Source: Flavonifractor sp. An112
Lineage (GTDB): Bacteria > Bacillota > Clostridia > Oscillospirales > Oscillospiraceae
Assembly: GCF_002161085.1 (NCBI RefSeq)
Contig: NZ_NFLU01000010.1
Span: forward strand, 62,001 to 126,000
Reading direction: 5' to 3'
Length of the DNA: 64,000 nt
Position numbers and translations under genes: made by a program. The notes beneath the pieces are model-generated. The model searched no databases and was not told the DNA's origin. It saw only the letters and a list, made by a program, of their open reading frames with translations. The first letter of the stretch is position 1. Each line of letters starts with the position of its first letter. Positions 5,305-32,764 of this stretch are shown piece after piece.

Positions 5305-5418
5305 GTCATTAACCTCCTGTAGAGCCTGATGGCCCCGGTACGGCGGAGGCAAGGCCCCGCTGACCCGCACCGGTCATTGATAGGGTCGGCAGGCCTGCGC
5401 CCGCCGGAATGAGCCGGA

Positions 5419-5637: not shown

Positions 5638-5641
5638 AGCG

Positions 5642-5920
5642 TCATACCCTCCTTGACTCCTCAGCTCGGAAAGCGGCCAGCGCCCTCCGCACCTCTCGGT
5701 TTGTGATGGGTTCCCCAGTCCGGATCTTCTCCAGAACGGGGTGTTGGAAGTCCCCGGCGTCGGCCGTGTGTACGGTTTTCTTCCGCTTGGGGGACTCTGC
5801 CTTTCGCCGTCTGCCGTCGCAGAGCAGCAGATAGGGGCCGTCTTGATCCAATACGCAGAACAGCTGCCCCTTGTCATGCCCTGCCAGTGAGCGGACGATC
5901 CGCGGATGCTCCGCCGCCAT
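5642..5920 (-). CDS. KOW-domain RNA-binding protein (L14e-like)
   Basis: 92-residue protein resembling the KOW-domain, L14e-type RNA-binding proteins that clostridia carry between map and infA. The N-terminal part ([29 protein letters not shown]) fits the KOW beta-barrel; the C-terminal part is charged and helical. Start ATG at 5920 lies 2 nt after the map stop with a GGAGG-type site. Role unproven; position and fold suggest ribosome or translation association. Confidence 0.8.
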
Positions 5921-5922
5921 AC

Positions 5923-6681
5923 TCAGTCCTCCGCCACGGTAAGCACTTCGGGCTCGCCGTCGGTGATGAGGATGGTATTTTCATAGTGGGCGGTCATGCT
6001 GCCGTCGGCGGACACGGTGGTCCAGCCGTCCTTGAGCACCTTCACCCGCCAGTCACCGGCACACACCATGGGCTCCACGGCGATGGTCATGCCCGGCTGG
6101 AGCCGGGGACCGTGTCCGGCAGGCCCGTAGTTGGGTACCTCCGGAGCCTCGTGGAGCTTGGCGCCCACACCGTGACCCACAAAGTCCCGCACCACGGAGA
6201 AGCCGTTGGCCTCCACATACTGCTGAACGGCGTGGGAGATGTCGTACACCCGCTTGCCCGGCTGGGCCAGACGGATGCCCTCCCAGAAGCTCTGCTCGGT
6301 GACCCGAATGAGCCGCATGGCCTCGTCGCTCACCTCTCCACAGGGGAAGGTGGCAGCACAGTCACCATGAAAGCCGTTGAGGTAAGCGCCCACGTCAATA
6401 GAGACGATGTCGCCTTCCTGCAGCTTCCGGGGGCCGGGGATGCCGTGGATAACCTGCTCATTGATGGAGATGCAGGCGGAGCCGGAAAAGCCGCCATATC
6501 CCAGGAAGGAGGGCTTGGCTCCGTGACTTTCGATAAATTTGCGTACCGCGGTGTCAATCTCATGGGTGGTGACGCCGGGCCGCACCATGGAACCGGCCAG
6601 CGCCCGGGCCTGGGCGGTCAACCGCCCGGCCCGGCGCATCAGCTCGATTTCACGGGGAGATTTCAGTGAGATCATTTCCAT
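5923..6681 (-). CDS. map: Methionine aminopeptidase, type I
   Basis: 252-residue enzyme that removes the initiator methionine from nascent proteins. All metal and catalytic residues of the pita-bread fold are visible: H79, D96, D107, H170, E203 and E234. It lacks the N-terminal SH3-binding zinc extension. It lies 6 nt after adk. An internal ATG at codon 3 is a possible alternative start. Confidence 0.97.
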   Translation of the reverse strand: MEMISLKSPREIELMRRAGRLTAQARALAGSMVRPGVTTHEIDTAVRKFIESHGAKPSFLGYGGFSGSACISINEQVIHGIPGPRKLQEGDIVSIDVGAYLNGFHGDCAATFPCGEVSDEAMRLIRVTEQSFWEGIRLAQPGKRVYDISHAVQQYVEANGFSVVRDFVGHGVGAKLHEAPEVPNYGPAGHGPRLQPGMTIAVEPMVCAGDWRVKVLKDGWTTVSADGSMTAHYENTILITDGEPEVLTVAED

Positions 6682-6687
6682 CTCAAA

Positions 6688-7320
6688 TCACTTCTCCAGC
6701 AGTTCCATGATCTTGTTGTTGGTCTCTTCGATCCCGCCCAGATCAGGCACGCTCATCAGCACGCCGTGAGCCTGGTAATAGTCCTTGAGGGGCTCGGTCT
6801 CGTTGTGATAGACCTCCAGCCGGTGCTTAACGGTCTCAGGCTGGTCGTCCTTGCGCTGCTCCAGCTCGCCGCCGCACTTGTCGCAGATCCCCTCCTGCTT
6901 GGGAGGAGCGGCCACAATGTGGTAGGTGGCGCCGCAGGTGTGGCAGGTCCGGCGGCCCGTCATACGGGCCTCGATGACGCTGTCGGCGATCTCCAGGGAG
7001 AGCACCGCGTCAAAGTGGATGCCGTGGGCATCCAGAGCCTCAGCCTGGGCGATGGTGCGGGGCACGCCGTCCAGGATAAAACCATTGGCACAATCGGACT
7101 CGGCCAGCCGCTCCTGAATGATGCCGATGATGACCTCATCAGGGACCAGCTTGCCGGCGTCCATATAGCTCTTAGCCTCCAGCCCAATGGGGGTGCCGGC
7201 CTTGACGGCGGCCCGGAGGATGTTGCCGGTGGAGATGGTGGGGATACCCAGCTTCTTGCTGATGATCTCAGCCTGAGTACCCTTTCCGGCGCCGGGGGCG
7301 CCCAGAAGAATGATTTTCAT
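6688..7320 (-). CDS. adk: Adenylate kinase
   Basis: 210-residue enzyme for ATP + AMP = 2 ADP. P-loop GAPGAGKGT at residues 7-15. The lid is the zinc type of Gram-positive bacteria: C126, C129, C146 and C149. It is cotranscribed with secY (12 nt upstream) and map, as is usual in the spc cluster. Confidence 0.98.
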
Positions 7321-18421: not shown

Positions 18422-18711
18422 TGTTCCTCCTTAAACATACGAAGTGGTGCGCTTTTGCCGGGTCCACGGGGCCAAAGCGCGGTGTCTTTCCTCGCTTCGT
18501 ACGGTGAGAGATTTCAGTACACGTTTCCGTGCGTATCACTCCGTGACATGAAGAAAACCGGCACAAGCAGGCCGGTTTTACCCATACATGGCGATATACG
18601 CCGTGTACAGATCCCTCAGCCGCCCGATTCTAGCTCGGACATACTCCGCGGAAGTTACCTCATTGCTGAGCAATCTCCCGCATCATCGCAGACTGCGCCC
18701 CAAACAGGCGC
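18422..18711 (-). promoter_or_regulatory. Structured leader of the S10 operon
   Basis: About 295 nt of untranslated leader before rpsJ. Close to the start codon is a long hairpin (18438-18501): outer arms TACGAAG/CTTCGTA and inner arms GCGCTTT/AAAGCGC. Further upstream lies a terminator-like hairpin listed separately. No ORF in it is convincing. The layout fits autogenous control of the operon, but the ligand (for example L4) is inference. Confidence 0.5.
18554..18579 (-). terminator. Attenuator-like hairpin in the S10 leader
   Basis: Perfect 9-bp stem AAAACCGGC/GCCGGTTTT with an 8-nt loop, the T-rich right arm running into TTTTCTTC on the minus strand. It lies about 130 nt into the transcript and 140 nt before rpsJ. 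Confidence 0.5.
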
Positions 18712-18717
18712 TTGATT

Positions 18718-18746
18718 ATGATACTCTAAAACCCATTCCCTGTCAA
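18718..18746 (-). promoter_or_regulatory. Main promoter of the S10-spc-alpha operon
   Basis: Consensus TTGACA (18741-18746) and TATCAT (18718-18723), 17 bp apart, on the minus strand. The -35 box overlaps the stop codon of the preceding glycosyltransferase gene. Confidence 0.85.
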
Positions 18747-20185
18747 GAGCTTTCCCGGTTTTTTTGAAAAATTTTTGTCTCTGCCGGAGCAGGCGGGAAA
18801 AGGGCCGCCTGTCCCAGCAGCAAAAGCACAGGAATCAGGGAATAGTGGTACCGCCCGGCCACCTCCACCAGCATCTGGGCGCAGGTCAGCCCCAGCACAT
18901 ACAGGGGCAGCAAAACCACAGCGGAGCGCTCCCGGTTTCGCCACAGCCGGACCAGGGCACCTCCCGCCAGTACCATGGCTGCATAATAGAATCCGTTGCA
19001 GGCCAGGGCAAACAGCTTGGTATGACGCACCACGCTGCCCACATAGCCCACGCAGGCGTGGTCAGAGTCCAGAAAAGCCCTCAGTTTATCCCGCAGCAGA
19101 GGCAGCAAGGCCACCTTCCCGGAGGTGATGCGGTCTTTGGCAGCCTCCAAAGCTCCCTCCTGAGCCTGCTGGGCGGTGGCCCCCGGCGCATCGCTGAGGG
19201 AAAAGAGCAGATCGCTGTCCTCCTGGTTCCATGCCCCGCCGGAGTCTTGGTTAAATCCCACCAGAACACTGTAGCCCAGCGTGGTGGAGGGCTCCTCCCC
19301 AATGCGGCGGGTCAAATGGGCCTGCCACAGCGGGCCGGTGACGGCATAGACCGCCAGCAGGGCGGCCAGCAGCCCCAACCAGTACCGCCGGGATTCTCCC
19401 AGCAGCCATTCCTCCGGCTTCAGCACCAGGCGCCAGATCAGCAGAGCAATGATCACCACCGCCGCAATGGGACGCACCCCGTTGAACCACCGCAGCACCA
19501 GCCCTGCTGCCACCCCCCGCAGGATGGGCCGTCTCCCTTCCCCTGCCGTCAGCAGCACCAGGGCTCCCAGCATCAGAGTGGTATAGAGGGGCTCGGACAG
19601 AACCAGACTATTATAAATGGTCTGGGAGGGGCAGGCGATCCACAGCAGATAGGCGGAGATCCCGGCCAGCAGTCCCCACCACCGCCGCCCCAACAGGAAA
19701 AGAAAACTGCCGGAGACAGCGGTGAGGACCACATTAAGCATCTGGGCCAGCAGTTCCCCCGGCCCCAGCAGGCGGATAAACCAACTGAGAAAGGAGGAGT
19801 AGCCGAAGATATGAGGGAAGAGGGCCATATAGCGCCCGCCCTCCAGTACCGGCTGCCGGGCCAGGGCATTGGCATAGCCCCAGAAGGTGGCGTAATCCCC
19901 GGAGGGAGTTACCCGTACCAGGAACACCCAGGCTCCCTTGACCGCCAGACAGAGTAGGGTAAGCCCCAGCCAGATCCTGACCGCCCCCATTCTCTCCAAC
20001 CAACGGCACAGCGGCGGCAACCCTTTCCAGCCCGCTGTCAGGACGGGAACTGCCAGCGCCAGGGCCTTCCAGGTCTCCCCATTCTGCCCCACCCCCAGCA
20101 CCAGCCCGCCGGCCAGCAGGGCCAGCGCCAGCCCCAGCATAATCCGGGTCAAAAGACCGGCCCCCGCCGTCAAACGCCGTTCCAT
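18743..20185 (-). CDS. Polytopic membrane protein, GT-C glycosyltransferase-like
   Basis: 480 residues with about 11-12 hydrophobic segments over its whole length. The first outside loop carries SGDYATFW with D97, the acidic position expected in GT-C fold enzymes that use lipid-linked sugars (ArnT/PMT-like), and a second loop has RRIGEEPSTTLGYS. No close family can be named. It is transcribed away from the XRE gene and its end overlaps the ribosomal promoter. Confidence 0.6.
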   Translation of the reverse strand: MERRLTAGAGLLTRIMLGLALALLAGGLVLGVGQNGETWKALALAVPVLTAGWKGLPPLCRWLERMGAVRIWLGLTLLCLAVKGAWVFLVRVTPSGDYATFWGYANALARQPVLEGGRYMALFPHIFGYSSFLSWFIRLLGPGELLAQMLNVVLTAVSGSFLFLLGRRWWGLLAGISAYLLWIACPSQTIYNSLVLSEPLYTTLMLGALVLLTAGEGRRPILRGVAAGLVLRWFNGVRPIAAVVIIALLIWRLVLKPEEWLLGESRRYWLGLLAALLAVYAVTGPLWQAHLTRRIGEEPSTTLGYSVLVGFNQDSGGAWNQEDSDLLFSLSDAPGATAQQAQEGALEAAKDRITSGKVALLPLLRDKLRAFLDSDHACVGYVGSVVRHTKLFALACNGFYYAAMVLAGGALVRLWRNRERSAVVLLPLYVLGLTCAQMLVEVAGRYHYSLIPVLLLLGQAALFPPAPAETKIFQKNRESS

Positions 20186-20607: not shown

Positions 20608-22005
20608 TTATAAAACTTCAGCAATCCGCTTTTTCATCTCGGCGGCGTCGATTTTAGTCTGGGTGAAGTGCTCCAGAGCCAGCACCGCCTGGTTGACCAG
20701 CAGTCCCAGCCCATTGGCGGTCTTGTGGCCCCGTTTCTTGGCCTGGCGGAGCAGCTCGGTTTCGGCGGGCGCGTAAATCAGGTCCACCACCGGCACGCCG
20801 GGCTTCAGATGATCCAGGAAGGAGAAGTCGGCAAACTGTCCGGCGGTGTCCGCCATTCCCAGGGAGGTGCAATTCACCAGCAGGTCGCACTCCTCCGCCG
20901 CCCGGGCCAGTTCATCCTGGGAAAAGCCCGCCGGATGAAGGTGCTCCGGGTCGTGGTCACAGATGGCCTGAGCCTTGTCGAGGGTACGGTTGCACACGAT
21001 GACCCCCGCTCCGGCCTGGGCCAGCTTGAGACATACCGCCTTGGCGGCGCCTCCCGCTCCCAGCACCGTCACCTTTTTACCCGCCGGATCGATGCCCTCG
21101 TCGGCCAGTGCCCGAAGGAAGCCCTCGCCATCGGTGTTGTAGCCGTAGGTTTTGCCCTCCCGGATGCATACGGTGTTCACCGCTCCGATAAGCCTGGCGT
21201 CCTCGTCCAGCACATCCAGCAGGGGCACCAGTTCCTCCTTGTGGGGCATGGTGGCGTTGAATCCGGCGTACCCGGCAAATTTGGCACACTCCAGCCATTC
21301 CCTGCACTGTCCCCGAGGCACCGGCTGACACAGATACACATAGTCCAGACCCAGAGCCTTGAGCATGGTATTCTGGATCAGAGGGGACTTTGAGTGGGCC
21401 ACCGGGTCCCCAATAACGCACAGCTTGCGGGTAGTGTTTTTCAGTTCCACATTCATATCCATCTCTCCCCGTTCGCCCTCCGGCCGGTGGTCGGGGAGGG
21501 CGGCGTTGATTGCCAGGGCCACCAGCAATCCCACAATGGTCTCAATCATGCGGGCAGCGGCGTAGTAATACCGGGTCACACCGGTGACGCCGGTGATGAG
21601 AATGACACAGGGCAGAATGCAGGCCATGCCGCAGGCGGTGGGCCGCTTGATGAGCAGACACAACCAAACCCCTGCCACACATACCACACCAAGAATGATG
21701 GTCTTGAGCCAGAAATGCTCCAGGGCCGGTCCCAGCAGCAGGGTAGCGGTACCCAGGGCGCCGCCCACAATGACGCCGATCAGGCGGGAAATACCCTGGC
21801 GGAAGGTCTGACCCAGGGTGCTCTGGGTGCAGATGATGCAGGCAATACAGGCATACAGAGGCCCCATCTGCCCCAAAATACCTCCCAGCTCCTCCCGATA
21901 GGTGAGGCCAAAGGGAAGGAACAGCGCATAGGACACCATCACCGCCACGGCTGTCTTGATGACCCGCATTCCAATGCGGGGCAAGGGAACAGAAGGATAT
22001 TTCAT
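20608..22005 (-). CDS. aroE: Fusion: aromatic-acid-exporter-type membrane domain + shikimate dehydrogenase
   Basis: One continuous 465-codon frame. Residues 1-172 form a membrane domain of the FUSC/ArAE_1 (aromatic acid exporter) type with about six hydrophobic segments and the QSTLGQTFRQGISRLIGVIVGG signature (QSTLGQTF..RLIGVIVGG). Residues 190-465 are a complete shikimate dehydrogenase: SKSP at 205-208, catalytic K256 in NATMPHK, AVNT, D292 in NTDGEGF and the GAGGAAKA nucleotide loop. A good ribosome site (GGGGAG) precedes Met184, so free AroE may also be made. Last gene of the aromatic operon. Confidence 0.85.
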   Translation of the reverse strand: MKYPSVPLPRIGMRVIKTAVAVMVSYALFLPFGLTYREELGGILGQMGPLYACIACIICTQSTLGQTFRQGISRLIGVIVGGALGTATLLLGPALEHFWLKTIILGVVCVAGVWLCLLIKRPTACGMACILPCVILITGVTGVTRYYYAAARMIETIVGLLVALAINAALPDHRPEGERGEMDMNVELKNTTRKLCVIGDPVAHSKSPLIQNTMLKALGLDYVYLCQPVPRGQCREWLECAKFAGYAGFNATMPHKEELVPLLDVLDEDARLIGAVNTVCIREGKTYGYNTDGEGFLRALADEGIDPAGKKVTVLGAGGAAKAVCLKLAQAGAGVIVCNRTLDKAQAICDHDPEHLHPAGFSQDELARAAEECDLLVNCTSLGMADTAGQFADFSFLDHLKPGVPVVDLIYAPAETELLRQAKKRGHKTANGLGLLVNQAVLALEHFTQTKIDAAEMKKRIAEVL

Positions 22006-22041: not shown

Positions 22042-22473
22042 TTACAACTCTCTGGCGAGAAAGTAACCCATTGCCGCCTCGTAGCCATACAGGCCCAGGC
22101 CGCAGATCTGACCCACACAGGCGGGGGCGGTGACGCTCTTGTGCCGGAACTCCTCCCGCTGGTGGACGTTGGAGATGTGGACCTCAATACAGGGCACATC
22201 CACCGCCTTCAGGGCGTCCAGAATGGCGTAGGAGTAGTGGGTAAAGGCCCCTGGGTTCATGACGATGGCGTCATACACCCCGTCGGCGGCGTGGATGGCG
22301 TCAATAATGGCCCCCTCGTGGTTGGACTGGAAGCAGTGGGCCTCAGAGCCGTGGGCGGCGGCAAAGTCCTCCAACCGCTTGCACAGGCTGTCATAGGTGT
22401 TCTCCCCATAAATACCCGGCTCCCGCTTGCCCAGCAGGTTCAGGTTGGGTCCGTTGATGACGAGAAATTTCAT
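22042..22473 (-). CDS. aroQ: 3-dehydroquinate dehydratase, type II
   Basis: 143-residue type II dehydroquinase that turns dehydroquinate into dehydroshikimate. NGPNLNLLGKREPGIYG with the catalytic Tyr, NPGAFTHYSYAI, and EVHISNVHQREEFRHKS are diagnostic. The ATG at 22473 overlaps the aroK stop (ATGA). Confidence 0.97.
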   Translation of the reverse strand: MKFLVINGPNLNLLGKREPGIYGENTYDSLCKRLEDFAAAHGSEAHCFQSNHEGAIIDAIHAADGVYDAIVMNPGAFTHYSYAILDALKAVDVPCIEVHISNVHQREEFRHKSVTAPACVGQICGLGLYGYEAAMGYFLAREL

Positions 22474-22964
22474 TTCAGCACCTCCAAAATCCGCTGGACG
22501 GTCTCCGCCGGGGTGGCCTGGACATCCACCACATGGTCCGCCCACTCCAGGTAGATGGGCTCCCGTCCGGCATATCGCTCCAGAAAGGCCTCTCTCCCCT
22601 GCTGGCCCAGGGGGCGGCTACCCATAGACACATTGTCGTAGATCTCTCCCGGGTCCCGCCGGAGGAAAACCACAGTACCACTATATTTTAGAGAAGCGAT
22701 GGAATCCGCCCGGGTGGGCAGGCCGCCGCCGCAGGCAATGACCTGTCCCTTACGCCGGGCCAGTTCCTCTGCCGCGCCCAACTCCCAGTCCCGGAAGAAG
22801 GCCTCTCCCTCCCTGGCAAAGATGTCGGGGATGGACCGGCCCAAGGCCTCCTCTATATATTGGTCGGTATCCACGAAGGTGAAGCCCAGCTCTTTGGCCA
22901 GCAGCTTCCCTACCGTGGACTTGCCGCAGCCCATCATACCGATGAGCACCACGTTATCCCTCAT
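22470..22964 (-). CDS. aroK: Shikimate kinase
   Basis: 164-residue kinase that phosphorylates shikimate at the 3-hydroxyl. Walker A GMMGCGKST at residues 9-17, shikimate-binding DTD and the GGG loop (ACGGGLPTR) are present. Overlaps pheA by 4 nt upstream and aroQ by 4 nt downstream. Confidence 0.96.
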   Translation of the reverse strand: MRDNVVLIGMMGCGKSTVGKLLAKELGFTFVDTDQYIEEALGRSIPDIFAREGEAFFRDWELGAAEELARRKGQVIACGGGLPTRADSIASLKYSGTVVFLRRDPGEIYDNVSMGSRPLGQQGREAFLERYAGREPIYLEWADHVVDVQATPAETVQRILEVLK

Positions 22965-24124
22965 GCCTGCTCCTCCCAGGCTTTGTAGTTGCCCAGAATG
23001 CGCACCTCGGTGGCCAATTGGCTCAGCTCGTGGAGCACCCCGTCCATGCCGGGGGCGGTGAGGTCGCCGGTGAAATCCAGGAAGAAGAGGTACTCAAAAC
23101 CCCGTCCAGGGATGGGCCGGGACTCGATCTTCAGCAGGTTGAGCCCCTGGACGGCAAAGATGGTGAGGATCTCATGGAGGGAGCCGCTCTGGTGGGGCAG
23201 GCGGAACACGGCACTGATCTTGTTGCGGTCGGGCCGCAGTTCGGGGACCGGAGACACCACGGCAAACCGGGTATGGTTCATGGTATTGTGGTTGACCCGT
23301 TCAGCCAGGATGTTGAGGCCGTACAACTGGGCAGCCCGCTTGGAGCAGATAGCGGCTGCGGTCAGATCCCCCTTCTCCGCCACCAGCTTGGCAGAACCGG
23401 CGGTGTCCAGGGTGGGCACCCGCTTCCAGTCCCGGTGGGCGTCCAGATACTTCTCGCTCTGCATCAGCCCCTGCTCATGGGAATAGACGGTGGTAATCTG
23501 GGACAGTTCCACGCCCGGCAGTGCTGCCAGGCAGTGCTCCACCGGCACCTGCCACTCCCCCACAATGTAATAGCGGTACTGGGCCATCAGGTCGTATACC
23601 TGCCGGATAGACCCGGTGGAGGAGTTCTCCACCGGCAGCATGGCGTAGTCCACCTCGCCGCTCTCCAGGGCAGCGAATACATCGTTGAACCAGGACTTGC
23701 CCACGCTGTTCACGTCTCCGCCGAAGAAGCCCACGGTGGCCTCCTCGCTGTAGCAGCCCGGCTCTCCCTGGTAGGTCACCCGGGGATTGGCCACCGGCTG
23801 ACGCACTCTGGCCAGGTCGGCCAGATAGGCGGCATAGCCCGGGTCCTCCGCCCCCTCCTTCACCAGATGGCGCTGCTGGCGGCGGGAGATGGCCATGATG
23901 CTCTCATAGAGCGCCGCCAGATCCGCCTTCCGGGCGGGATCGTCGGTCAGGGCCGTCTTGGCGGCAATGACCTGCTTCTCCCGGTTGGCGTCCAGCACCG
24001 GGATGCCCTGGCGCTGCTTATATTCCCCCACCTTGCCGGTGACGGCCATCCGCTCCAGAAAGAGTTTGACCAGTTCCCCGTCGATGCGGTCGATCTCCTG
24101 CCGATATTGCTCCAGTTCCGTCAT
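22961..24124 (-). CDS. pheA: Bifunctional chorismate mutase/prephenate dehydratase (P-protein)
   Basis: 387 residues. An AroQ-type chorismate mutase (about 1-85: RQEIDRIDGELVKLFLERM) is followed by prephenate dehydratase (about 110-285, with catalytic NHTRFAVVS) and a C-terminal ACT domain with the phenylalanine-binding ESRP motif. It commits chorismate to phenylalanine, so Phe is the expected allosteric inhibitor. Start at 24124 is chosen because GGAG lies 8 nt upstream. Its presence in the operon fits the Phe-rich leader peptide. Confidence 0.96.
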   Translation of the reverse strand: MTELEQYRQEIDRIDGELVKLFLERMAVTGKVGEYKQRQGIPVLDANREKQVIAAKTALTDDPARKADLAALYESIMAISRRQQRHLVKEGAEDPGYAAYLADLARVRQPVANPRVTYQGEPGCYSEEATVGFFGGDVNSVGKSWFNDVFAALESGEVDYAMLPVENSSTGSIRQVYDLMAQYRYYIVGEWQVPVEHCLAALPGVELSQITTVYSHEQGLMQSEKYLDAHRDWKRVPTLDTAGSAKLVAEKGDLTAAAICSKRAAQLYGLNILAERVNHNTMNHTRFAVVSPVPELRPDRNKISAVFRLPHQSGSLHEILTIFAVQGLNLLKIESRPIPGRGFEYLFFLDFTGDLTAPGMDGVLHELSQLATEVRILGNYKAWEEQA

Positions 24125-24139
24125 ATCCATCGCTCCTTA

Positions 24140-25183
24140 TCAGATGCCCAATACAGCGCAGGCCGCCAGGGCAGCCGCCGCCTCGATCACCGGCACCGCC
24201 CGGGGGACGATGCAGGGATCATGGCGGCCGTGGATCTCAATTTCCGTCTCCTCCCCAGTCCGCAGGTCCACGCTCTCCTGAGGCAGAGAGATGGAGGGAG
24301 TGGGCCGGATGGTGACCTCAAAGGTCACCGGCATCCCGTTGGTGATGCCGCCGTTGATTCCCCCGGCGTGGTTGGTCTTGGTGACCACTTTGCCGTCCTC
24401 CACGGCGAAGGGGTCGTTGGCCTCGCTGCCCCGCATGAGGGAGAAGGCCACACCGGCCCCGAACTCGATGCCCTTCACCGCGGGTACGGCAAAGAGATAC
24501 TGGGAGAAGACGCCCTCCACATTGCAGCCGAAGTCGGGGGCGCCCAGTCCGGCGGGCAGGCCGGTGACGGCGCACTCGATGGCGCCGCCCACGCTGTCCT
24601 GCTCCTCCTTGGCCTCCAGAATGGCCTGGCGCATCTCCTCTCCCTTGCTGTCATTCAGTACCGGGAAGGATTTGGCCGCCACAGCTTTCAGTTCCTCCGG
24701 GTCCTCCAGGGCGGCGTCGCAGATGCCGTAGATGGAGCTGATGTGGGCCCCCACCTGAACGCCCCGGCCCGCCAGCACCTGCTTGGCCACTGCGCCGGCG
24801 GCTACCAGTGGAGCGGTGAGACGGCCGGAGAAGTGGCCGCCGCCCCGATAGTCCAGACAGCCTCTGCTCTTGATGAATCCGGCGTAATCCCCGTGGCTGG
24901 GCCGGGGGGTGTACCGGATGGATTCATAGTCCTTGGAGTGCTGGTCGGAGTTGCGGATCACCATAGCCAGAGGGGCCCCGGTGGTCTTGCCCTCAAACAC
25001 CCCGGAGAGCACCTCCACCAGGTCGCTCTCCTTCCGGGCAGTTGCGGTGGGGTCCTGGCCCGGCTTGCGCCGGTCCAGCTCCTTCTGTACTCGTCCCAGA
25101 TCCAGCTCCAGCCCGGCGGGTACCCCCTCCAGCACCACGCCGATGGCAGGGCCGTGGGACTCCCCGAAGATCATATGTCGCAT
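24140..25183 (-). CDS. aroC: Chorismate synthase
   Basis: 347-residue FMN-dependent enzyme making chorismate from EPSP. FGESHGPAIG close to the N-terminus and RPSHGDYAG are family motifs. The ATG at 25183 has GGAGG about 9 nt upstream and overlaps the aroA end by 13 nt. The N-terminus is several residues shorter than in most family members. Confidence 0.95.
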   Translation of the reverse strand: MRHMIFGESHGPAIGVVLEGVPAGLELDLGRVQKELDRRKPGQDPTATARKESDLVEVLSGVFEGKTTGAPLAMVIRNSDQHSKDYESIRYTPRPSHGDYAGFIKSRGCLDYRGGGHFSGRLTAPLVAAGAVAKQVLAGRGVQVGAHISSIYGICDAALEDPEELKAVAAKSFPVLNDSKGEEMRQAILEAKEEQDSVGGAIECAVTGLPAGLGAPDFGCNVEGVFSQYLFAVPAVKGIEFGAGVAFSLMRGSEANDPFAVEDGKVVTKTNHAGGINGGITNGMPVTFEVTIRPTPSISLPQESVDLRTGEETEIEIHGRHDPCIVPRAVPVIEAAAALAACAVLGI

Positions 25184-26400
25184 ATCAGTTCTCCTCCCAA
25201 TCTGCGGTAATCCTCCCAGAACCGTGGATAGGACTTCTTGACGCACTCCGCACCAGTGATGGTCACCGGCGCTTCACACCGGATGGCGGCAATGGCCGCC
25301 ATCATGGCAATGCGGTGGTCATTGTGGCCGGAGACGGTAACACCCCCCGCCAGCTTCTCCTTCCCATGGATCACCAGGTAGTCCTCATATTCCTCTACCT
25401 GGGCCCCCAGGGCGTTGAGCACTTCGGTCACGGTAGCCAGCCGGTCGCTCTCCTTGATCCGCAGCCGCCCGGCGTTGACAATGCGGGTGGTCTCCCCCGA
25501 TCGCAGGGCGGCCATGGCGGCCAGAGGGGGCACCAGATCGGGGCACTGGCTTACATCCAGGTCCAGGCTGCCGATCCCCTGCAGCTGGTCATAAAATCCG
25601 GCAATGGCCCGGTCCCCCTGAACGGAGGCCTGATCCAGCCCACCGATCTCCACCGGGCAGCCCAGGCATTTGGCTCCGTACCAGAAGGCGGCGTTGGACC
25701 AGTCGGCCTCAATGGCCAGATTCTGATGCTGGTAATACTGATTTCCCGGCACACGGAAGGTGCGCTTGCCGTCGTATTCCGCCTTTACTCCAAACCGTTC
25801 CAGGGCGTCCAGGGTCATGTCCACATAGCCCCGGCTCTCCAGGCCGGTGGTGAGTACGATCTGGCTGTCCCCCTCCAGCAGGGGCAGGGCATACAGCAGG
25901 CCGGTGATGAACTGGGAGGACACGTTGCCCGGCAGAGTGTAAATGCCGGGGGTCAGCTTGCCCCGTACCGTCAGCACCCCGTCCTTCTGTTCGTAGAAGA
26001 TGCCCTTCTCCCGGAAGAGGGCAAAATAGGGCCCCTGGGGCCGCTCCATCAGCCGCCCGTGGCCGGTGAATTTCCCGCCCCCCTTGAGGGCCAGAGCCAC
26101 CGGAATGAGAAAGCGGAGGGTGGAGCCGCTCTCCCCGCAGTCCATCACCTCGGGGGCGGGCTCCTCATGGCCATCCACCAGGTCGGCGCCCCGGATGATG
26201 GTACCATCAGCAGAAGCGTCGGCGTCCAGGGTGCGCATACACCGCAGGGTGGCCTGGATGTCCTCCGACAAATCCACGTTGGACAGCTTGCAGAAGCCGT
26301 CGGACAGAGCGGCGGCGATGATGAGCCGGTGGGCCTGGCTCTTGGAGGGGGGCGGAGTTACCGCCCCCGCCAGCGAGGTTGGCGTAATGGTCACATTCAT
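25171..26400 (-). CDS. aroA: 3-phosphoshikimate 1-carboxyvinyltransferase (EPSP synthase)
   Basis: 409-residue enzyme joining PEP and shikimate 3-phosphate. PPPSKSQAHRLIIAAALS (binding Lys/Ser), DCGESGSTLRFLIP and the C-terminal RIKESDRLATV and GHNDHRIAM blocks are visible. The residue after the second GESGS motif does not show the classical resistance pattern clearly; glyphosate response cannot be read from it. Confidence 0.96.
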   Translation of the reverse strand: MNVTITPTSLAGAVTPPPSKSQAHRLIIAAALSDGFCKLSNVDLSEDIQATLRCMRTLDADASADGTIIRGADLVDGHEEPAPEVMDCGESGSTLRFLIPVALALKGGGKFTGHGRLMERPQGPYFALFREKGIFYEQKDGVLTVRGKLTPGIYTLPGNVSSQFITGLLYALPLLEGDSQIVLTTGLESRGYVDMTLDALERFGVKAEYDGKRTFRVPGNQYYQHQNLAIEADWSNAAFWYGAKCLGCPVEIGGLDQASVQGDRAIAGFYDQLQGIGSLDLDVSQCPDLVPPLAAMAALRSGETTRIVNAGRLRIKESDRLATVTEVLNALGAQVEEYEDYLVIHGKEKLAGGVTVSGHNDHRIAMMAAIAAIRCEAPVTITGAECVKKSYPRFWEDYRRLGGELICDI

Positions 26401-27461
26401 TTCAGTTCCTCCAGCAGTGCGGCTTTGGGCATTTTATGGGGGATAGCCCGGCCCATCTCTTCCAGCAGGATCACGCTGATGTCCGCCCCCGCCCCCTTCT
26501 TGTCCAGACCAATGGCGGCGGCATACTCCTCCGCCGTACAAGAGATCTCCACCGGCAGATCCAGAGCGGTGAGAACGGCGGCAATCCTGTCCGCCGTCCC
26601 CGCCGGAGTAATCCCCAGCCGCTCCCCCAGTCCGGCGGCCCTCACCATACCGGCGGCCACCGCCTGACCGTGGGTCCACTTCTCATAGTGGCCCGCCTTC
26701 TCGTAGGCGTGGCCCAGGGTGTGGCCGAAGTTGAGCAGCATCCGTTTTCCCGTGTCCCGCTCGTCCCCTTCCACAATATTCCGTTTTAAATTGCAGCAAA
26801 TATACAGAACGTGTTCGATTTCCGCCATAATTCCCTTCCGGCTGGGCCGGTGGGCCAGGAAATCAAAGAAGGTCCCGTCCAGGATACAGCCGTACTTGAT
26901 GACCTCTGCCATACCGTCGGCAAAGGTAGCGTCGGGCAGGGTATCCAGGGTATCCGGGTCCATCAGCACCAGCTTGGGCTGCCAGAAGGCACCGGCCAGA
27001 TTCTTGCCCGCCTCCAGGTCGATGGCCACCTTGCCTCCCACAGAGGAGTCCACCTGGGAGAGGAGGGTGGTGGGGATCTGGACGAAGTCCACCCCACGCA
27101 GGATAGTAGCTGCGGCAAAGCCCGCCAGGTCCCCCACCACGCCGCCGCCCAGAGCCACCACGGCATCGGTACGGGTGAGCCCGGCGGCCATCATGGCCTC
27201 CCACAGGCCGGCCAGCTGACCGGCACACTTGGAGGCCTCTCCGGCGGGCACAACATGGATCGTCACAGAAAACCCGGCGGCGGTGAGACTTGCTTCCAGC
27301 CGGGGGGCATAGAGGGGGGCCACGTTGGAGTCGGTGACCACAAAGAGCCTGCCCGCCCGGGGCAGGGCCTTCCGGCAGTATGCTCCCGCCTGGTCCAGCA
27401 GGCCCCGCTGGATCAGAATATCATATTCCCGCCCCGGCAGGGCAACGGTGAGGGTCTTCAT
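26397..27461 (-). CDS. aroB: 3-dehydroquinate synthase
   Basis: 354-residue NAD- and metal-dependent enzyme, second step of the pathway. LGGGVVGDLAGFAAATILRG, the FVQIPTTLLSQVDSSVGGK block and FGHTLGHAYEKAG (metal histidines) are present. Start MKTLTVALPG at 27461 has AAGGA about 10 nt upstream. Its stop overlaps the aroA start by 4 nt. Confidence 0.96.
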   Translation of the reverse strand: MKTLTVALPGREYDILIQRGLLDQAGAYCRKALPRAGRLFVVTDSNVAPLYAPRLEASLTAAGFSVTIHVVPAGEASKCAGQLAGLWEAMMAAGLTRTDAVVALGGGVVGDLAGFAAATILRGVDFVQIPTTLLSQVDSSVGGKVAIDLEAGKNLAGAFWQPKLVLMDPDTLDTLPDATFADGMAEVIKYGCILDGTFFDFLAHRPSRKGIMAEIEHVLYICCNLKRNIVEGDERDTGKRMLLNFGHTLGHAYEKAGHYEKWTHGQAVAAGMVRAAGLGERLGITPAGTADRIAAVLTALDLPVEISCTAEEYAAAIGLDKKGAGADISVILLEEMGRAIPHKMPKAALLEELK

Positions 27462-27527
27462 GGGCACTTCGTCCTTTCCATAATACCGTAGGAGCAATCT
27501 TTCTGGCCACCCCTGCGTCATTTCTTT

Positions 27528-28547
27528 TTATTTTACCAACTTTTTCTCCACCAGGTCAACCAGCATACCCACCTTGTGCATGAGGGCGTCGAACTTCTGG
27601 GGGGTAAGGGACTGCTGGCCGTCGCACTTGGCGTGGGCGGGATCGTTGTGGACCTCGATGATGAGACCGTCGGCGCCCGCCGCCACGGCGGCCAGGGCCA
27701 GAGGCTCCACCATCCAGTACATACCGGCAGCGTGGGAGGGGTCCACGATGACGGGCAGATGGCTCATCTGCTTGACGGCGGGGATGGCGGACACGTCCAG
27801 GGTGTTGCGGGTGTAGGTCTCAAAGGTACGCACGCCCCGCTCGCACAGGATCACGTTCTCATTGCCCTCGGCCATAATATACTCGGCGGACATGATCCAT
27901 TCCTCGTAGGTGTTGGACAGGCCCCGTTTGAGCAGGATGGGCTTGCTCATCTTGCCCACTTCCTTAAGCAGCTCAAAGTTCTGCATATTGCGGGCGCCCA
28001 CCTGGACCACGTCCACCTCCCGCTCAAAGAGGTCGGCCATCCGGGGGTCCATGATCTCGGTGACGATGGGCAGACCGGTCTTGGCCCGGGCCTCCACCAG
28101 CAGATCCAGGCCGGGAGTGCCCATGCCCTGGAAGGAGTAGGGGGAGGTGCGGGGCTTGAAGGCGCCGCCCCGCAGCATGGCCGCGCCGGAGCGCTTCACG
28201 TCCTCGGCCACGGCGCAGATCTGCTCCTCACTCTCCACCGAGCAGGGGCCGGCAATGACGGAGAAGTTGCCGCCGCCGATCTTGGCATTGCCCACGGTGA
28301 CCACCGTGTCCTCGGGGTGGAACTTGCGGTTGGCCTTCTTGTAGGGCTCCTGCACCCGCATGACCCGCTCCACGTTGGGGTTGATGGAGATCTTGTCCAT
28401 ATCCACGGCGGTGGTATCGCCCACCAGGCCCAGGATGGTGCAGCCCACGCCGTTGGTAATGCCCACTTCCAGGCCCAGCTGCTTCAGTTTATCTGCCAGA
28501 TGTTGAATATCCTCCTGCCGGGTACCGGGCTTCATGACGACTACCAT
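27528..28547 (-). CDS. aroF: 3-deoxy-7-phosphoheptulonate synthase (DAHP synthase, type I-beta)
   Basis: 339-residue first enzyme of the pathway, condensing PEP and erythrose 4-phosphate. The N-terminal 70-80 residues form the ferredoxin-like regulatory domain typical of the Thermotoga-type enzyme; the barrel follows with IAGPCSVES, GGAFKPRTSPYSFQG, and DPSHAAGM. First structural gene of the operon, about 25 nt downstream of the attenuator hairpin. Confidence 0.96.
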   Translation of the reverse strand: MVVVMKPGTRQEDIQHLADKLKQLGLEVGITNGVGCTILGLVGDTTAVDMDKISINPNVERVMRVQEPYKKANRKFHPEDTVVTVGNAKIGGGNFSVIAGPCSVESEEQICAVAEDVKRSGAAMLRGGAFKPRTSPYSFQGMGTPGLDLLVEARAKTGLPIVTEIMDPRMADLFEREVDVVQVGARNMQNFELLKEVGKMSKPILLKRGLSNTYEEWIMSAEYIMAEGNENVILCERGVRTFETYTRNTLDVSAIPAVKQMSHLPVIVDPSHAAGMYWMVEPLALAAVAAGADGLIIEVHNDPAHAKCDGQQSLTPQKFDALMHKVGMLVDLVEKKLVK

Positions 28548-28570
28548 ATGACACGCTTCCTTTCCAGTGA

Positions 28571-28607
28571 CAAAAATAGGCGCTCATTGATGAAATCAAT
28601 GAGCGCC
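28571..28607 (-). terminator. Attenuator terminator of the aro operon
   Basis: Perfect 13-bp stem GGCGCTCATTGAT with its complement, 3-nt loop, then TATTTTTG on the minus strand. It lies between the leader peptide and aroF. The 5' arm plus adjacent bases (CAGGGC) can also pair with GCCCT about 40 nt upstream, a possible antiterminator. Confidence 0.85.
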
Positions 28608-28666
28608 CTGTCTGTGTTACAAGGTAATATCAGGCCCCATAGGGCCCACCCATTTACTCCATCCTG

Positions 28667-28759
28667 CTATTTTCCCATGCCAAAAAAGCCGGTGCCCATA
28701 AATCGAGCCCAGCCAAAGGAAAACAGGAAGGATGCAGTTGTGAGGGAACGTCTGGTCAT
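28667..28759 (-). CDS. Phenylalanine-rich leader peptide of the aro operon
   Basis: A 30-residue open frame not long enough for ordinary gene calling. It starts ATG at 28759 with GAGG about 9 nt upstream, and reads MTRRSLTTASFLFSFGW then ARFMGTGFFGMGK before TAG. Six of 30 residues are Phe (11, 13, 15, 20, 25, 26) and one is Trp; there is no Tyr. It lies between a near-consensus promoter and a perfect terminator in front of aroF, the classical layout of a ribosome-mediated attenuator, as for the E. coli pheA leader. A stalled ribosome on Phe codons when Phe-tRNA is scarce would favour read-through. Confidence 0.8.
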   Translation of the reverse strand: MTRRSLTTASFLFSFGWARFMGTGFFGMGK

Positions 28760-28791
28760 GCCTGTACGCCTCACTTTTCTAGGTTGGAGTC

Positions 28792-28820
28792 ATTATACCC
28801 TCTTTTTCCCGTGATTGCAA
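28792..28820 (-). promoter_or_regulatory. Promoter of the aromatic operon
   Basis: TTGCAA at 28815-28820 and TATAAT at 28792-28797, 17 bp apart, minus strand; predicted start of transcription about 25 nt before the leader peptide ATG. Confidence 0.85.
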
Positions 28821-28884
28821 CGGGAATTGTGTACAAATACCGCCGGTGTTTTCTCCACTCTCACTGTGTTTTCCCCCTGTCCGG

Positions 28885-30249
28885 TCACATGGGCGCGCTT
28901 TGCAGCTCGCCGGGGGGCATATGCCGCAGCAGCTGCCGCAGGCAGAGGGCGAAGAGCACCGAGCTGATGGACCAGGTGAGGGGATAGGCCCAATAGACCA
29001 CCCGGATGTCGGGGATGACCCGCACGGTAAGGGTGATGTAGGTGATACGCAGGGCGCACCACACCGTCAGCATAATGGCCATGGGTACGATGGGCCGCCC
29101 CATGCCCCGCAGGATGCCGGCGCAGCAGTGGGAGAAGGACAGCAGGCAGTAGAACAGAGATACCGTGCGGGCGTAGGCCACACCAAAGGCCACCACCTCC
29201 GGCTCGCTGTTGAAGGCGGCCACCAGCAGCGGGGAGGCCAGGAAGATGATCCCGCCGATGGCCTCTGCCAAAATGGGGCTGCACACCAGGCCGAACTTCA
29301 TACCCGCCCGCACCCGGTCGAAGCGGTGGGCCCCCAGGTTCTGACTGACGAAGGTGGACAGGGCCAGCGCAAAACAGGTTACCGGCAGGAAGGCAAAGCC
29401 TTCGATACGGCTGTAGGCGCCGCAGCCCGCCATGGCGGCGGAGTCAAAGGCGTTGATGTTGGCCTGGACGATGACGTTGGCCAGGGAGACCACCGAGCTC
29501 TGTACTCCGGAGGGGATACCCAGGGTGATGATCTGCTTGAAGGTAGGTCCCTCGAAGCGCACCCGCCGCCAGTTCACCCGGTAGCCCGCCTTGGTGAGGG
29601 TCAGCTTGCGGAAGGCCAGGAAGGCGGACAGGCACTGGCTGAGGATGGTGGCCAGGGCGGCGCTGCCCACCCCCAGTTTCAGTACCGCCACAAAGAGCAG
29701 ATCCAGCACCACATTGGTAAGGGAGGCGGCAATGAGGTACTTCATGGGGCTGCGGCTGTCACCCACCGACTGGAGGATACTGGCCCCCATGTTGTAGAGC
29801 ACCACAGCGGAGGAGCCGAAGAAGTAAATACGGAAGTAAAGAATGGAGTTGTCAATGACGTCGGCAGGGGTGCCGATCCACTGGAGGATCTGTGGGGTTA
29901 AAATGGCCCCCACTACTGTCAGGATCACACCTGCTGTCAGGCCCAGGGCCACGGTGGTGTGGACCGCCCGCTCCATATGGTCGTCGTCCTCCGCCCCGTA
30001 GTACCGTGCGATGAGCACGCCCGCACCCAGGGATACACCGTTGATAAAGCCCACCATGAGCAAAATCATGCTGCTGGAGGAGCTGACCGCCGCCAGAGCG
30101 GACCGACCGATGAAGTTGCCCACAATGAGGGAATCCACCGCATTATATAATTGCTGAAACAGGTTACTGAAAAAGATGGGCAGGGCGAAGGCCAGCATCT
30201 TTTTGGGGACGCTGCCTTCGGTCAGGCGATTTTGTTCGTTTCGGTCCAT
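28885..30249 (-). CDS. MATE family efflux transporter
   Basis: 454-residue multidrug/toxin extrusion-type transporter with 12 predicted membrane segments. The N-terminal ILxFALPIFFSNLFQQLYNAVDSLIVG-type block (seen as FALPIFFSNLFQQLYN, DSLIVGNFIG) is a clear MATE signature. The start at 30249 has GGAG 9 nt upstream; an in-frame ATG three codons earlier is less well placed. Substrate unknown. Confidence 0.92.
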   Translation of the reverse strand: MDRNEQNRLTEGSVPKKMLAFALPIFFSNLFQQLYNAVDSLIVGNFIGRSALAAVSSSSSMILLMVGFINGVSLGAGVLIARYYGAEDDDHMERAVHTTVALGLTAGVILTVVGAILTPQILQWIGTPADVIDNSILYFRIYFFGSSAVVLYNMGASILQSVGDSRSPMKYLIAASLTNVVLDLLFVAVLKLGVGSAALATILSQCLSAFLAFRKLTLTKAGYRVNWRRVRFEGPTFKQIITLGIPSGVQSSVVSLANVIVQANINAFDSAAMAGCGAYSRIEGFAFLPVTCFALALSTFVSQNLGAHRFDRVRAGMKFGLVCSPILAEAIGGIIFLASPLLVAAFNSEPEVVAFGVAYARTVSLFYCLLSFSHCCAGILRGMGRPIVPMAIMLTVWCALRITYITLTVRVIPDIRVVYWAYPLTWSISSVLFALCLRQLLRHMPPGELQSAPM

Positions 30250-30836: not shown

Positions 30837-31874
30837 TTAAAATAGAATATCACTCATGCCGATATCAAAGATATTTTGATACATCAAGTGCCCATCCAAT
30901 TCTATTTTCAGTTGGATGTAATCACTTAAATACCTCTGGTATTTCATTTTAACTCCCGCGGACTGCTTGTAATCAAGAGAACCACTATAGGTATCACAGG
31001 CAAGAGTATTACCATTACTGCCTTTCCAATAAAGGGTTCCTGTAAATTGAACAGGTACTGTTCCACTCCGCGCCTTATTTTGATCATAGCGCAGTTTTGC
31101 TTCGTTAAGCTCAATCGAAATCCCATCCGGATAGGATTTTACATTTCTCACAAAGATTCCATGTCTGAAAAATAGATATGTCCCCAGATCTGCAGGTGCA
31201 GCCGTAATCAAATCTTTATACTGTGCATACCTTGCTGGGCAGCGCTCCTGTAGTAACGCAAACAACGTTTCTTTCTCCGCAACGCTCCGACAAACAATGC
31301 GTCTGAGCAGACCATTCAATGGAAGTCCGTCATCACGTAGCACTTCTGTACGTCGGTAACGGAGAATAGATGAGTCATGAGAAGTCGGGCCATTGTGAAA
31401 TATCTTTTGAAAATTTAACTCAGCAAATTTTCCCGGTCCAAAACGCCTCTGTTCAATTTGATGGCCAGCTCCCCCTCGCTCCACAAAGCAAACGCCCGGA
31501 TATTCAAGGGTCTTGACCGCATCAAATAGAAAGAAGACCGCCACAGGGCAGTCTGCCTCCTTATATTCTTTATGTCGCACTGTTTTAGGCTTATAGCCTT
31601 CATTATAAAATTGAGTTGGAGTCAATGGACGCATATACAAACGTGCGCAATGCTTAATATCATCTCGTGTTACTTCCAATACATTATGGCTTGCAGCATC
31701 AATTTTTACAAGCTGACGCGTTTCTACTGTTTTCCTGTCATAAAGCCATTCCTGCTCAATGATTCCGACTGCATTATTTACGTCCGTATAGTGATATAAA
31801 TAGCTAGGCCACCAATTGATTTCCCGTGGAAGCCGTTTTCTCTGTTGTCGTATGGTTTCCAAATAAGTCGGCAC
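30837..31874 (-). CDS. darT: DarT-family DNA ADP-ribosyltransferase toxin
   Basis: 345-residue protein resembling DarT (DUF4433), which ADP-ribosylates thymidine in single-stranded DNA. LYHYTDVNNAVGII with H28 and N33/N34 fits the NAD-binding start; YMRPLTPTQFYNEG and RRTEVLRDDGLPL with the likely catalytic E177 follow. DarT proteins are about 200-220 residues; this one has about 120 extra C-terminal residues predicted beta-rich, with no recognised family. GTG start at 31874 with GAGGTGAG upstream, 12 nt after the DarG stop. AT-richer than the flanking core genes. Confidence 0.8.
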   Translation of the reverse strand: MPTYLETIRQQRKRLPREINWWPSYLYHYTDVNNAVGIIEQEWLYDRKTVETRQLVKIDAASHNVLEVTRDDIKHCARLYMRPLTPTQFYNEGYKPKTVRHKEYKEADCPVAVFFLFDAVKTLEYPGVCFVERGGAGHQIEQRRFGPGKFAELNFQKIFHNGPTSHDSSILRYRRTEVLRDDGLPLNGLLRRIVCRSVAEKETLFALLQERCPARYAQYKDLITAAPADLGTYLFFRHGIFVRNVKSYPDGISIELNEAKLRYDQNKARSGTVPVQFTGTLYWKGSNGNTLACDTYSGSLDYKQSAGVKMKYQRYLSDYIQLKIELDGHLMYQNIFDIGMSDILF

Positions 31875-31885
31875 AGGAGCTCACC

Positions 31886-32728
31886 TCATTCGATATACTG
31901 ATACCCATCACTGAAGTCAATGCCATTTAGGGAGGTCAAAACCGGCTGTAGATAATCCATTTTTTCCAGGACTTTTAACAAAAGCTCGGCATGCGCTGAA
32001 AACTTTTCCGGAAGCCTGTCCATGCTAACTACACCACTATCCCGGATATAGACCCAAAATTTGCACAACTCCGTTGACTTCAGTGTTACCTCCTGTCCAT
32101 TTTTTAGGATAATTCCATCTTCAGACCACCGCGCGCGGCCATATTCCCCATCTTTAAGAGGAAGACACACTTCCTGTGAGAAATACTTCCGCAAATCTTC
32201 CTCCAACACAGCAAATCCTATATTTTCCGGATGGGTGTGAAGCCATCTCTCCATCGGCTCTGGCTCTACATGCTCCGGAGTCTGATCTCGATAGCTACCA
32301 ACATAGATATAGACAGGAATTGGAAGCGATCTTAGATATTTCTCCATCAGAGGTTGTACAAGTTTCCAATCCAGGCCTCCATTCCCGCAGCCAAGGCGCG
32401 GAAACGCAGCCGAGGTAATCCCTTTATCTGCATAGGAAGCCGCAAATTTTTGTAATCCGGCTTCAATATATTCAATTTTTGATGGATTTCGCCAATGAAT
32501 CTTTGTTGGAAACATGAGAACCCACTTATCTGGTCCCTTCCAGAGAAAAAGCTTCCCAACTTCTAACTGCCTTGATTTGCAAACTCGTTCATAAGCAGAA
32601 AACATCTCTGGATAGCGCTTTTTAAATTCTAGTGCAACTCCTTTTCCCATAACACCGACTGTATTAACAGTATTGATCAATGTCTGAGCGGGAGAACTAA
32701 ATATATCGCCTTTAAGATAGGTAATCAC
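31886..32728 (-). CDS. darG: DarG-family macrodomain antitoxin
   Basis: About 280 residues. The N-terminal 150 residues are a macrodomain (LKGDIFSSPAQTLINTVN, VGVMGKGVALEFKKRYP, FPRLGCGNGGLDW), which in DarG removes ADP-ribose from DNA. The C-terminal half matches the DarG region that binds DarT only in general placement. The GTG at 32728 has GGGGTGAT just upstream and gives the normal N-terminus; an ATG at 32743 is the alternative. It is the first gene of the pair. Confidence 0.82.
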   Translation of the reverse strand: MITYLKGDIFSSPAQTLINTVNTVGVMGKGVALEFKKRYPEMFSAYERVCKSRQLEVGKLFLWKGPDKWVLMFPTKIHWRNPSKIEYIEAGLQKFAASYADKGITSAAFPRLGCGNGGLDWKLVQPLMEKYLRSLPIPVYIYVGSYRDQTPEHVEPEPMERWLHTHPENIGFAVLEEDLRKYFSQEVCLPLKDGEYGRARWSEDGIILKNGQEVTLKSTELCKFWVYIRDSGVVSMDRLPEKFSAHAELLLKVLEKMDYLQPVLTSLNGIDFSDGYQYIE

Positions 32729-32764
32729 GCTATCACCCCACATAGTAACATACTTCTAATAGGG

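Follow-up and report, generated by a model that had tools for sequence, protein, structure and literature searches.

The leader peptide encoded by pheL is rich in phenylalanine and its reading frame is followed by an intrinsic terminator. In Escherichia coli this leader peptide is located before pheA and responds to charged tRNA-Phe (PMC11802643). According to the same account, the leader peptide AroR of Corynebacterium glutamicum lies upstream of the aroF operon, whose transcription goes up under Phe limitation; AroR contains the residues Phe-Tyr-Phe, where the Tyr is given there without a reported effect (PMC11802643). A third system, uORFC-13-1, is a predicted upstream ORF of Acholeplasma that includes one Phe codon or more and is accompanied, before aroF, by a terminator and possible promoter boxes; it is described from 24 sequences which belong to Acholeplasma and unassigned environmental sources only (PMC8632094).

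In the Firmicutes, T-boxes are the usual sensors of tRNA charging and leader-peptide attenuators are described as long unreported (PMC1262725, PMC2965389). Attenuators with His leader peptides have been found in this phylum (PMC2965389, PMC9413887), and for Staphylococcus aureus an attenuator peptide rich in Leu has been reported (PMC5794164). These are examples of classical leader-peptide control where relatives use a T-box, and the accessible parts of these accounts name no aromatic example. A different element, a candidate riboswitch, is given for the region upstream of aroFBC-tyrA in Enterococcus faecium (PMC4448216).

The window analysed here is a stretch of 64,000 nucleotides from Flavonifractor sp. 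An112. An initial annotation had placed a promoter (TTGCAA-17-TATAAT), a leader of 30 codons, six of them Phe, and a perfect 13-bp terminator before aroF, and all of these were found, on the minus strand. Ten of the twelve consensus positions are matched in the promoter, which is of the sigma-70 type. Translation of the leader ORF confirmed that its 30 codons include six Phe, a single Trp and no Tyr, and its stop codon lies 119 nt from the aroF start at 28547. The features of the locus are as follows.

28815-28820, minus strand: -35 hexamer TTGCAA, from the sequence; the promoter as a whole spans 28820-28792
28792-28797, minus strand: -10 hexamer TATAAT, at 17-nt spacing from the -35 hexamer
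28769-28774, minus strand: GTGAGG, the leader Shine-Dalgarno and 5' arm of a small hairpin, P0
28667-28759, minus strand: leader ORF MTRRSLTTASFLFSFGWARFMGTGFFGMGK, from ATG to the stop codon TAG at 28669-28667
28740-28745, minus strand: CCTCAC, leader codons 5-7, the 3' arm of P0
28687-28714, minus strand: hairpin P2 within the leader ORF, GGCUGGGCUC-GAUUUAU-GGGCACCGGCU, with a Phe UUU codon in its loop
28700-28705, minus strand: CGA-UUU (Arg19-Phe20), invariant codons and proposed main control codon
28647-28657, minus strand: strand 2, GTAAATGGGTG, 3' of the stop codon, the proposed antiterminator strand and also a possible partner of the P2 loop
28598-28605, minus strand: CGCTCATT, terminator 5' arm and partner of strand 2
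28579-28607, minus strand: intrinsic terminator stem-loop GGCGCTCATTGAT-TTC-ATCAATGAGCGCC, with 13 perfect pairs
28569-28578, minus strand: U tract of the terminator, TATTTTTG, after the stem
27528-28547, minus strand: aroF, 3-deoxy-7-phosphoheptulonate (DAHP) synthase
26397-27521, minus strand: aroB, 3-dehydroquinate synthase; a later ATG start is possible
25171-26400, minus strand: aroA, 3-phosphoshikimate 1-carboxyvinyltransferase
24140-25246, minus strand: aroC, chorismate synthase
22961-24130, minus strand: pheA, chorismate mutase / prephenate dehydratase
22470-22964, minus strand: aroK, shikimate kinase
20608-22005, minus strand: aroE, shikimate dehydrogenase with an N-terminal domain like that of aromatic acid exporters

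The operon was expected to hold eight genes and to end with pheA. We found seven consecutive genes in the order aroF-aroB-aroA-aroC-pheA-aroK-aroE, where pheA is the fifth and aroE the last, and their spacing and common strand suggest that they form one transcript. In aroE (20608-22005, minus strand) the exporter/FUSC-like N-terminal third and the shikimate dehydrogenase share one open frame, and at another locus (L115) the two parts are found in separate frames. Further downstream, an S10-Clostridia ribosomal protein leader (RF03136) was matched at 18617-18694 on the minus strand (39.8 bits, cut-off 35.1); it lies downstream of a 480-aa ORF at 18743-20185 with no match in Pfam or NCBIfam. On the other side of the leader, adjacent genes at 30837-32743 (minus strand) encode a DarT-like (DNA ADP-ribosyltransferase) protein and a macro-domain protein. 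This pair looks like a toxin-antitoxin system of the DarTG type, and a resolvase and an N-6 DNA methylase are located near it.

The arrangement is like that of pheL-pheA in that a leader peptide of the trpL class is found before a chorismate mutase/prephenate dehydratase gene. It differs in that pheL of E. coli precedes pheA alone whereas the Flavonifractor leader stands before aroF with six more genes behind it, in that the ORF contains an invariant hairpin whose loop carries a Phe codon, and in that there is no Rfam match. The likeness to uORFC-13-1 is one of arrangement and by description only; the Acholeplasma lineage is distant from Clostridia. AroR was likewise compared by description only and has Phe-Tyr-Phe where the leader of the window has no Tyr. 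It belongs to the Actinobacteria and, as described in that source, is without a paired Tyr attenuator on a second DAHP synthase (PMC11802643). The T-box (RF00230) is likewise a sensor of tRNA charging for amino-acid operons but it reads the tRNA directly without a leader ORF, whereas the Flavonifractor element has one.

We propose, with a probability of roughly 0.86, that 28,569-28,820 would act as a ribosome-mediated transcription attenuator which senses charged tRNA-Phe and controls aroF-aroB-aroA-aroC-pheA-aroK-aroE. The strongest evidence for this reading is comparative: the Phe and Tyr codons of the leaders track the end product of the operon. Transcription would start just past TATAAT and a ribosome would enter the leader ORF at once. 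If Phe-tRNA is scarce, the ribosome is expected to stall at the Phe codons, chiefly the UUU in the P2 loop or the later UUU-UUU. Stalling would open P2 and free strand 2 (AAUGGGUG) to pair with CGCUCAUU of the terminator 5' arm, and the polymerase would read through. If Phe is ample, the ribosome would reach the stop codon beside strand 2, which would then be covered or held by P2, so that the 13-bp terminator might form and transcription end. The pairing of CCTCAC with GTGAGG in P0 could mask the leader Shine-Dalgarno, and our guess is that Shine-Dalgarno pairing may allow only a single ribosome onto the leader of each transcript. An alternative pairing of the Shine-Dalgarno (28769-28774) with the terminator 5' arm is also possible.

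Within the window, this upstream region is distinctive. None of the 72 other long-frame starts, many of which are mechanical open frames and not genes, was found to have a small upstream ORF with at least seven aromatic residues under the same ORF rule (mean 2.4), and a terminator was observed by simple scan at 5 of the 72. The leader RNA (28548-28786) has a fold z-score of -5.49 and none of 200 shuffles was equally stable. This excess is smaller when the terminator is left out (28600-28790), where the z-score is -2.36 and 4 of 200 shuffles were as stable.

Absence of the leader from relatives, which the initial annotation had named among the findings that would speak against it, was not observed. 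The genus is represented by 20 genomes, its own included, and the leader peptide, together with promoter and terminator, was found in 19; the sole genome that lacks the peptide is 75% complete. In each of the 19 the stop codon of the leader is located 104-127 nt before aroF. When 300 genomes of the family were searched with a profile, 30 genomes from 14 genera matched at E <= 1.2e-6, and an aroF start was found downstream in 24/24 of the profile-matched loci outside the six genomes of the genus. Searches at the level of the order (394 genomes) and the class (391 genomes), in samples which include some members of the window's family, had no match from any other family with an E-value below 0.001. 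A spread of this leader peptide family across the class was therefore rejected, as the profile matches are confined to the window's family.

In the genome_contigs collection, a 24-nt core pattern was found at 51 loci, which include Flavonifractor plautii ATCC 29863 and named records of Pseudoflavonifractor and Intestinimonas. An aroF-type start is present 146-265 nt past the start of the pattern in 51/51 of these loci. The identity of aroF was confirmed by tblastn in 49 of the 51, the other two stretches being too short, and pheA is visible in 14, the remainder being cut off earlier or having fewer genes. When 94 loci were compared with the core pattern, 45 were found to match, a count in which several loci represent one place counted twice. 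No match was found when the plasmid collection was searched with the leader DNA, nor when the leader peptide was compared with Pfam and NCBIfam. With Rfam at the gathering score no family falls on the leader and the S10-Clostridia leader is the only match in the window; at a relaxed threshold, the region 28400-28900 gave three matches at chance level, none of them a T-box.

For the analysis of structure, 93 processed leaders (42 and 51) were reduced to 60 distinct ones by removing identical segments and two leaders with short 5' sequence; L056 was left out as it has no W.RF motif. A -10 element (at least 5/6 matches) was found in 60/60 of the distinct leaders at 29-42 nt before the ATG, and a -35 element (at least 4/6 matches) in 36/60. 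All 60 also have a Shine-Dalgarno, an aligned start codon and an open frame. In 53/60 no other ATG lies between the Shine-Dalgarno and the one taken as the start; the in-frame spacing between ATG and core is set by the construction of the leader set and was not counted as evidence.

The three hairpins of the model are highly conserved in this alignment. Together, P0, P2 and the terminator have 96.1% of their cells paired (89.7%, 98.7% and 97.2% respectively) while slid controls reach at most 52.6%. Changes on both sides of a pair were observed in 11 pairs, eight of them in the terminator, two in P2 and one in P0, against 3.1 in shuffles, and none of 500 shuffles was as high. The 11 pairs of P2 are predicted with a mean probability of 0.91. 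It could be argued from the exceptionally strong nucleotide conservation of the P2 stem and loop, the strong folding of the leader and the hardly elevated change at third positions of the ORF that P2 with its GAUUUAY loop binds a ligand or a protein, in the manner of a riboswitch or a protein-binding RNA, and that the ORF is incidental. We consider this very unlikely, as the ATG, Shine-Dalgarno and open frame are kept in every one of the 60 leaders and no Rfam family matches, and a ligand-binding RNA would have no need for a codon content that tracks the end product between paralogous operons.

The attenuator further predicts that strand 2 and the terminator 5' arm can form an antiterminator. 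This helix is paired in 89.4% of cells, a value reached by 1 of 500 shuffles, and slid versions have at most 56.2% of their cells paired. The mean energy of the duplex is -10.3 kcal/mol as compared with -5.5 +/- 2.3 kcal/mol when strand 2 is shuffled. Covariation is modest among these related sequences: a slide of -3 equals the antiterminator in double-changed pairs (5) and has 13 double-changed cells against 9, yet only 35.3% of its cells are paired. The 5' arm of the terminator is near-invariant whereas the 3' arm varies between A and G opposite U, the pattern to be expected of a 5' arm that takes part in two helices. Read from the alignment, an antiterminator which would exclude the terminator is thus a conserved pairing possibility. 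A further helix, P1, between leader codons 7-10 and the stop region was only partly kept and was dropped from the model.

Strand 2 also fits the P2 loop together with the three preceding bases, with a bulged G, where 92.3% of cells are paired in register and the best control register (-8 to +8) has 75.6% paired. In this alternative reading, the invariant P2 loop GAUUUAY would pair with RURAAU of strand 2 as a pseudoknot and form an anti-antiterminator inside the coding sequence, and the same few nucleotides might then do double duty, as the codon that senses Phe and as a lock for the antiterminator. The duplex between this strand 1 and strand 2 has an energy of -6.7 kcal/mol against -4.6 +/- 1.8 kcal/mol when strand 2 is shuffled, and the loop part alone gives -1.4. 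Because this duplex is weak, the pseudoknot was kept out of the main model and is offered as an alternative reading only.

Folding of the leader, which the initial annotation had put forward as informative, gave a stability far above that of shuffles but, under nested folding, no switching that depends on Phe20. In these calculations, which are at equilibrium, use RNA truncated before the terminator 3' arm and ignore pseudoknots and kinetics, the mean antiterminator probability over 60 leaders is 0.34 without a ribosome, 0.35 with a ribosome at Phe20 and 0.13 with a ribosome at the stop codon. For the leader of the window the respective values are 0.95, 0.95 and 0.70. When the ribosome is placed at the stop codon, 47/60 leaders have an antiterminator probability below 0.1 (nested folding, no pseudoknots). 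The low value comes mostly from 40 leaders where the stop codon is at most 10 nt from strand 2 (mean 0.02), while the other 20, which include that of the window (12 nt to strand 2), retain 0.35. Ribosome-mask folding was rejected as proof of a switch, as the stalled and untranslated states are alike. That no clear switch is seen for the window's leader would also fit a constitutive partial terminator whose leader is decaying and no longer senses an amino acid. Decay would hardly be expected to leave the terminator arm, strand 2 and the control codons conserved across genera, and we regard it as extremely improbable.

The core of the leader is conserved at the level of codons. In 42 leaders, Arg is CGA in 42/42, the next Phe is UUU in 42/42 and the Gly before Trp is GGC in 40/42; these leaders were chosen by a [WY].R[FL] motif, so that the residues are partly given by selection but the codons are not. 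For comparison, ten ORFs of the window use CGA for 7 of their 206 Arg codons, and UUU encodes 259 of 303 Phe in the 60 related leaders but 48 of 138 in those ten ORFs. When the leader ORF is divided into five segments, variation peaks at the third codon position in just one of them. As the core codons are near-invariant and third positions are rarely the most variable, the core is conserved at the RNA level. Since most of the conserved codons also lie in RNA helices and third positions show this pattern, conservation alone does not prove translation.

These patterns also bear on two readings in which the peptide itself is the active product. TnaC is the model for sensing by a nascent peptide in the exit tunnel, and the GWARFxGxGF core might likewise sense free Phe or another aromatic there and set the attenuator through an arrested ribosome. 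A counter of Phe codons has no need for the Trp, Arg and Gly of this core, which is conserved in 30/300 genomes of the family. However, the core is kept as nucleotides with few changes at any codon position, as in a helix, and in other genera the leaders of orthologues or paralogues have lost it and retain aromatic codons; we would give nascent-peptide arrest only a slight chance. The peptide might instead be a small protein acting in trans, with the terminator merely separating its gene from aroF, for which peTrpL of Sinorhizobium provides a precedent as described (PMC7298713) and the occurrence of a similar peptide across many species could be cited. Such a role is hard to reconcile with the third-position pattern, with sequences that differ between the Phe, Tyr and mixed leaders and with the lack of a Pfam or NCBIfam match, and it seems to us scarcely credible.

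The ribosome-mediated attenuator is most clearly supported by comparison with a second operon. The same genome encodes a second DAHP synthase (aroF2), 64% identical to the first and followed by the prephenate dehydrogenase gene tyrA. The leader of aroF2-tyrA, MLKRTGYGYGYYRCYFASGVSACP, has five Tyr and one Phe and a strong terminator of its own, and its fold z-score is -7.23 with none of 200 shuffles as stable. No T-box match was observed at aroF2-tyrA in two genomes. In the coordinates of the own genome (G000:C1) this locus consists of two features.

5214-5288: Tyr-rich leader (L186)
5385-7276: second DAHP synthase and tyrA

Since a second DAHP synthase before tyrA has a Tyr-rich leader, control of the entire common pathway by Phe alone, as first suggested, is too strong a claim; the Phe-codon attenuator itself is well supported by the comparison. 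With a Tyr-codon sister attenuator at aroF2-tyrA, the two branches would be served by separate DAHP synthases and separate sensors. Trp was rejected as a signal, as no match to the trpE model TIGR00564 was found in the genome and the unsplit leaders described below are without Trp. The absence of a match to this one model in G000, which is 99.86% complete, suggests that the genome has no tryptophan branch.

The family was surveyed at 68 loci, where the most aromatic small ORF upstream of each DAHP synthase was taken by a rule that is blind to Phe versus Tyr and gene content was read by tblastn. Three groups were observed. Of 20 pheA-group loci that were extended, 17 have aroF-aroB-aroA-aroC-pheA, two are short contigs with aroF-aroB-aroA and one has aroF-tyrA. 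Among the second copies (L228-L245), tyrA follows in 18/18 and aroB is absent from the stretch taken, mostly 4 kb. In the unsplit group, aroF-tyrA is followed by aroB in 19/22, and of the remaining three, two are short contigs and one is a 4-kb stretch that lacks aroB; some genomes of this group (G021, G022 and G139) have further copies of DAHP synthase. The locus L183 (G086) was first filed as pheA-type but is aroF-tyrA, and it was moved for the means and p values; the move makes the codon contrast slightly stronger and leaves the kind of result unchanged. Two loci without a start by the motif (L184 and L185) are the same genes (G020 and G028) as those counted as unsplit under L224 and L225, and L158 was left out as it lies at a contig edge.

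We found that the aromatic codons follow the genes. Leaders of the pheA-type operons (26 loci) have a mean of 4.62 Phe and 1.35 Tyr, those of the aroF-tyrA operons (20 loci) 1.75 Phe and 4.45 Tyr, and those of the unsplit aroF-tyrA-aroBA operons (22 loci) 4.86 Phe, 3.68 Tyr and no Trp, with at least two of both Phe and Tyr in 22/22. The Phe share differs among all three groups (p = 7.9e-6, 4.4e-5 and 1.1e-4). These means retain about eight loci of the 68 where the ORF rule has apparently chosen wrongly or no leader exists (L161, L167, L174, L183, L199, L201, L203 and perhaps L223). The pheA gene itself is visible in 18 of the 26 pheA-type loci, namely the window and 17 of the 20 extended; the remaining ones are the two short contigs with aroF-aroB-aroA and six loci placed by the similarity of aroF. 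The leaders contain 6.6, 6.9 and 8.6 aromatic residues in the three groups as compared with 3.2-3.9 in shuffled upstream regions, and a terminator was found by simple scan in 20/27, 12/19 and 20/22 against 7% in shuffles, with L183 still in the pheA group for these terminator and shuffle figures. In addition, 19 genomes that have both copies were compared in pairs compiled by hand from the survey, and in 18 of them the pheA operon has the leader with the stronger Phe bias; where a plausible leader is present on both sides, this is so in 14/14.

We tentatively suggest an extension of this model, which we think doubtful as a whole: a pseudoknot lock between the P2 loop and strand 2, together with a split of an ancestral mixed attenuator into Phe and Tyr forms once the DAHP synthase gene had been duplicated. 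Specificity for Phe would have arisen in one leader copy and specificity for Tyr in the other, and the ancestral Phe and Tyr type might survive in the unsplit operons.

Beyond the family, loci were taken from other families of the order (40, hand-picked from matches in 117 genomes) and from the class (40, from 109 genomes). At least seven aromatic residues were observed in 30 of the order loci and 19 of the class loci, a terminator in 29 and 19, and a T-box in four of each. About half of the class sample has neither an aromatic leader nor a T-box. The loci with a T-box upstream of DAHP synthase are L293, L295, L303, L305, L322, L327, L341 and L344, and many of their relatives carry an aromatic leader peptide instead. 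These samples and the family-limited profile together indicate that this type of control is widespread while the RNA element described here is a trait of the window's family. In the own genome, 14 matches to the T-box (RF00230) were found, six of them above the cut-off and none at the pheA operon.

The element is very probably a real attenuator of a known mechanism class, that of pheL and AroR, and we did not find the family or its partition between Phe and Tyr described. The suggestion that such an attenuator had gone undescribed therefore stands only in part: AroR and the Acholeplasma uORF precede it, but a lineage-wide family with a Phe/Tyr split was not found in the literature searched. 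Within the open-access literature, a scope that largely leaves aside subscription papers and preprints, there was no account of Phe/Tyr leader-peptide attenuators in this family of Clostridia.

This gut lineage seems to use classical leader-peptide attenuators for its aromatic pathway despite the presence of T-boxes in the same genome. The element provides a simple marker for annotation and is a candidate for a new Rfam family. The paralogous operons form a natural experiment, with a Phe leader at pheA, a Tyr leader at tyrA and a mixed leader where the genes are together. This allows one to ask how a sensor shifts its specificity once a pathway has been divided, and how T-boxes and leader peptides take each other's place.
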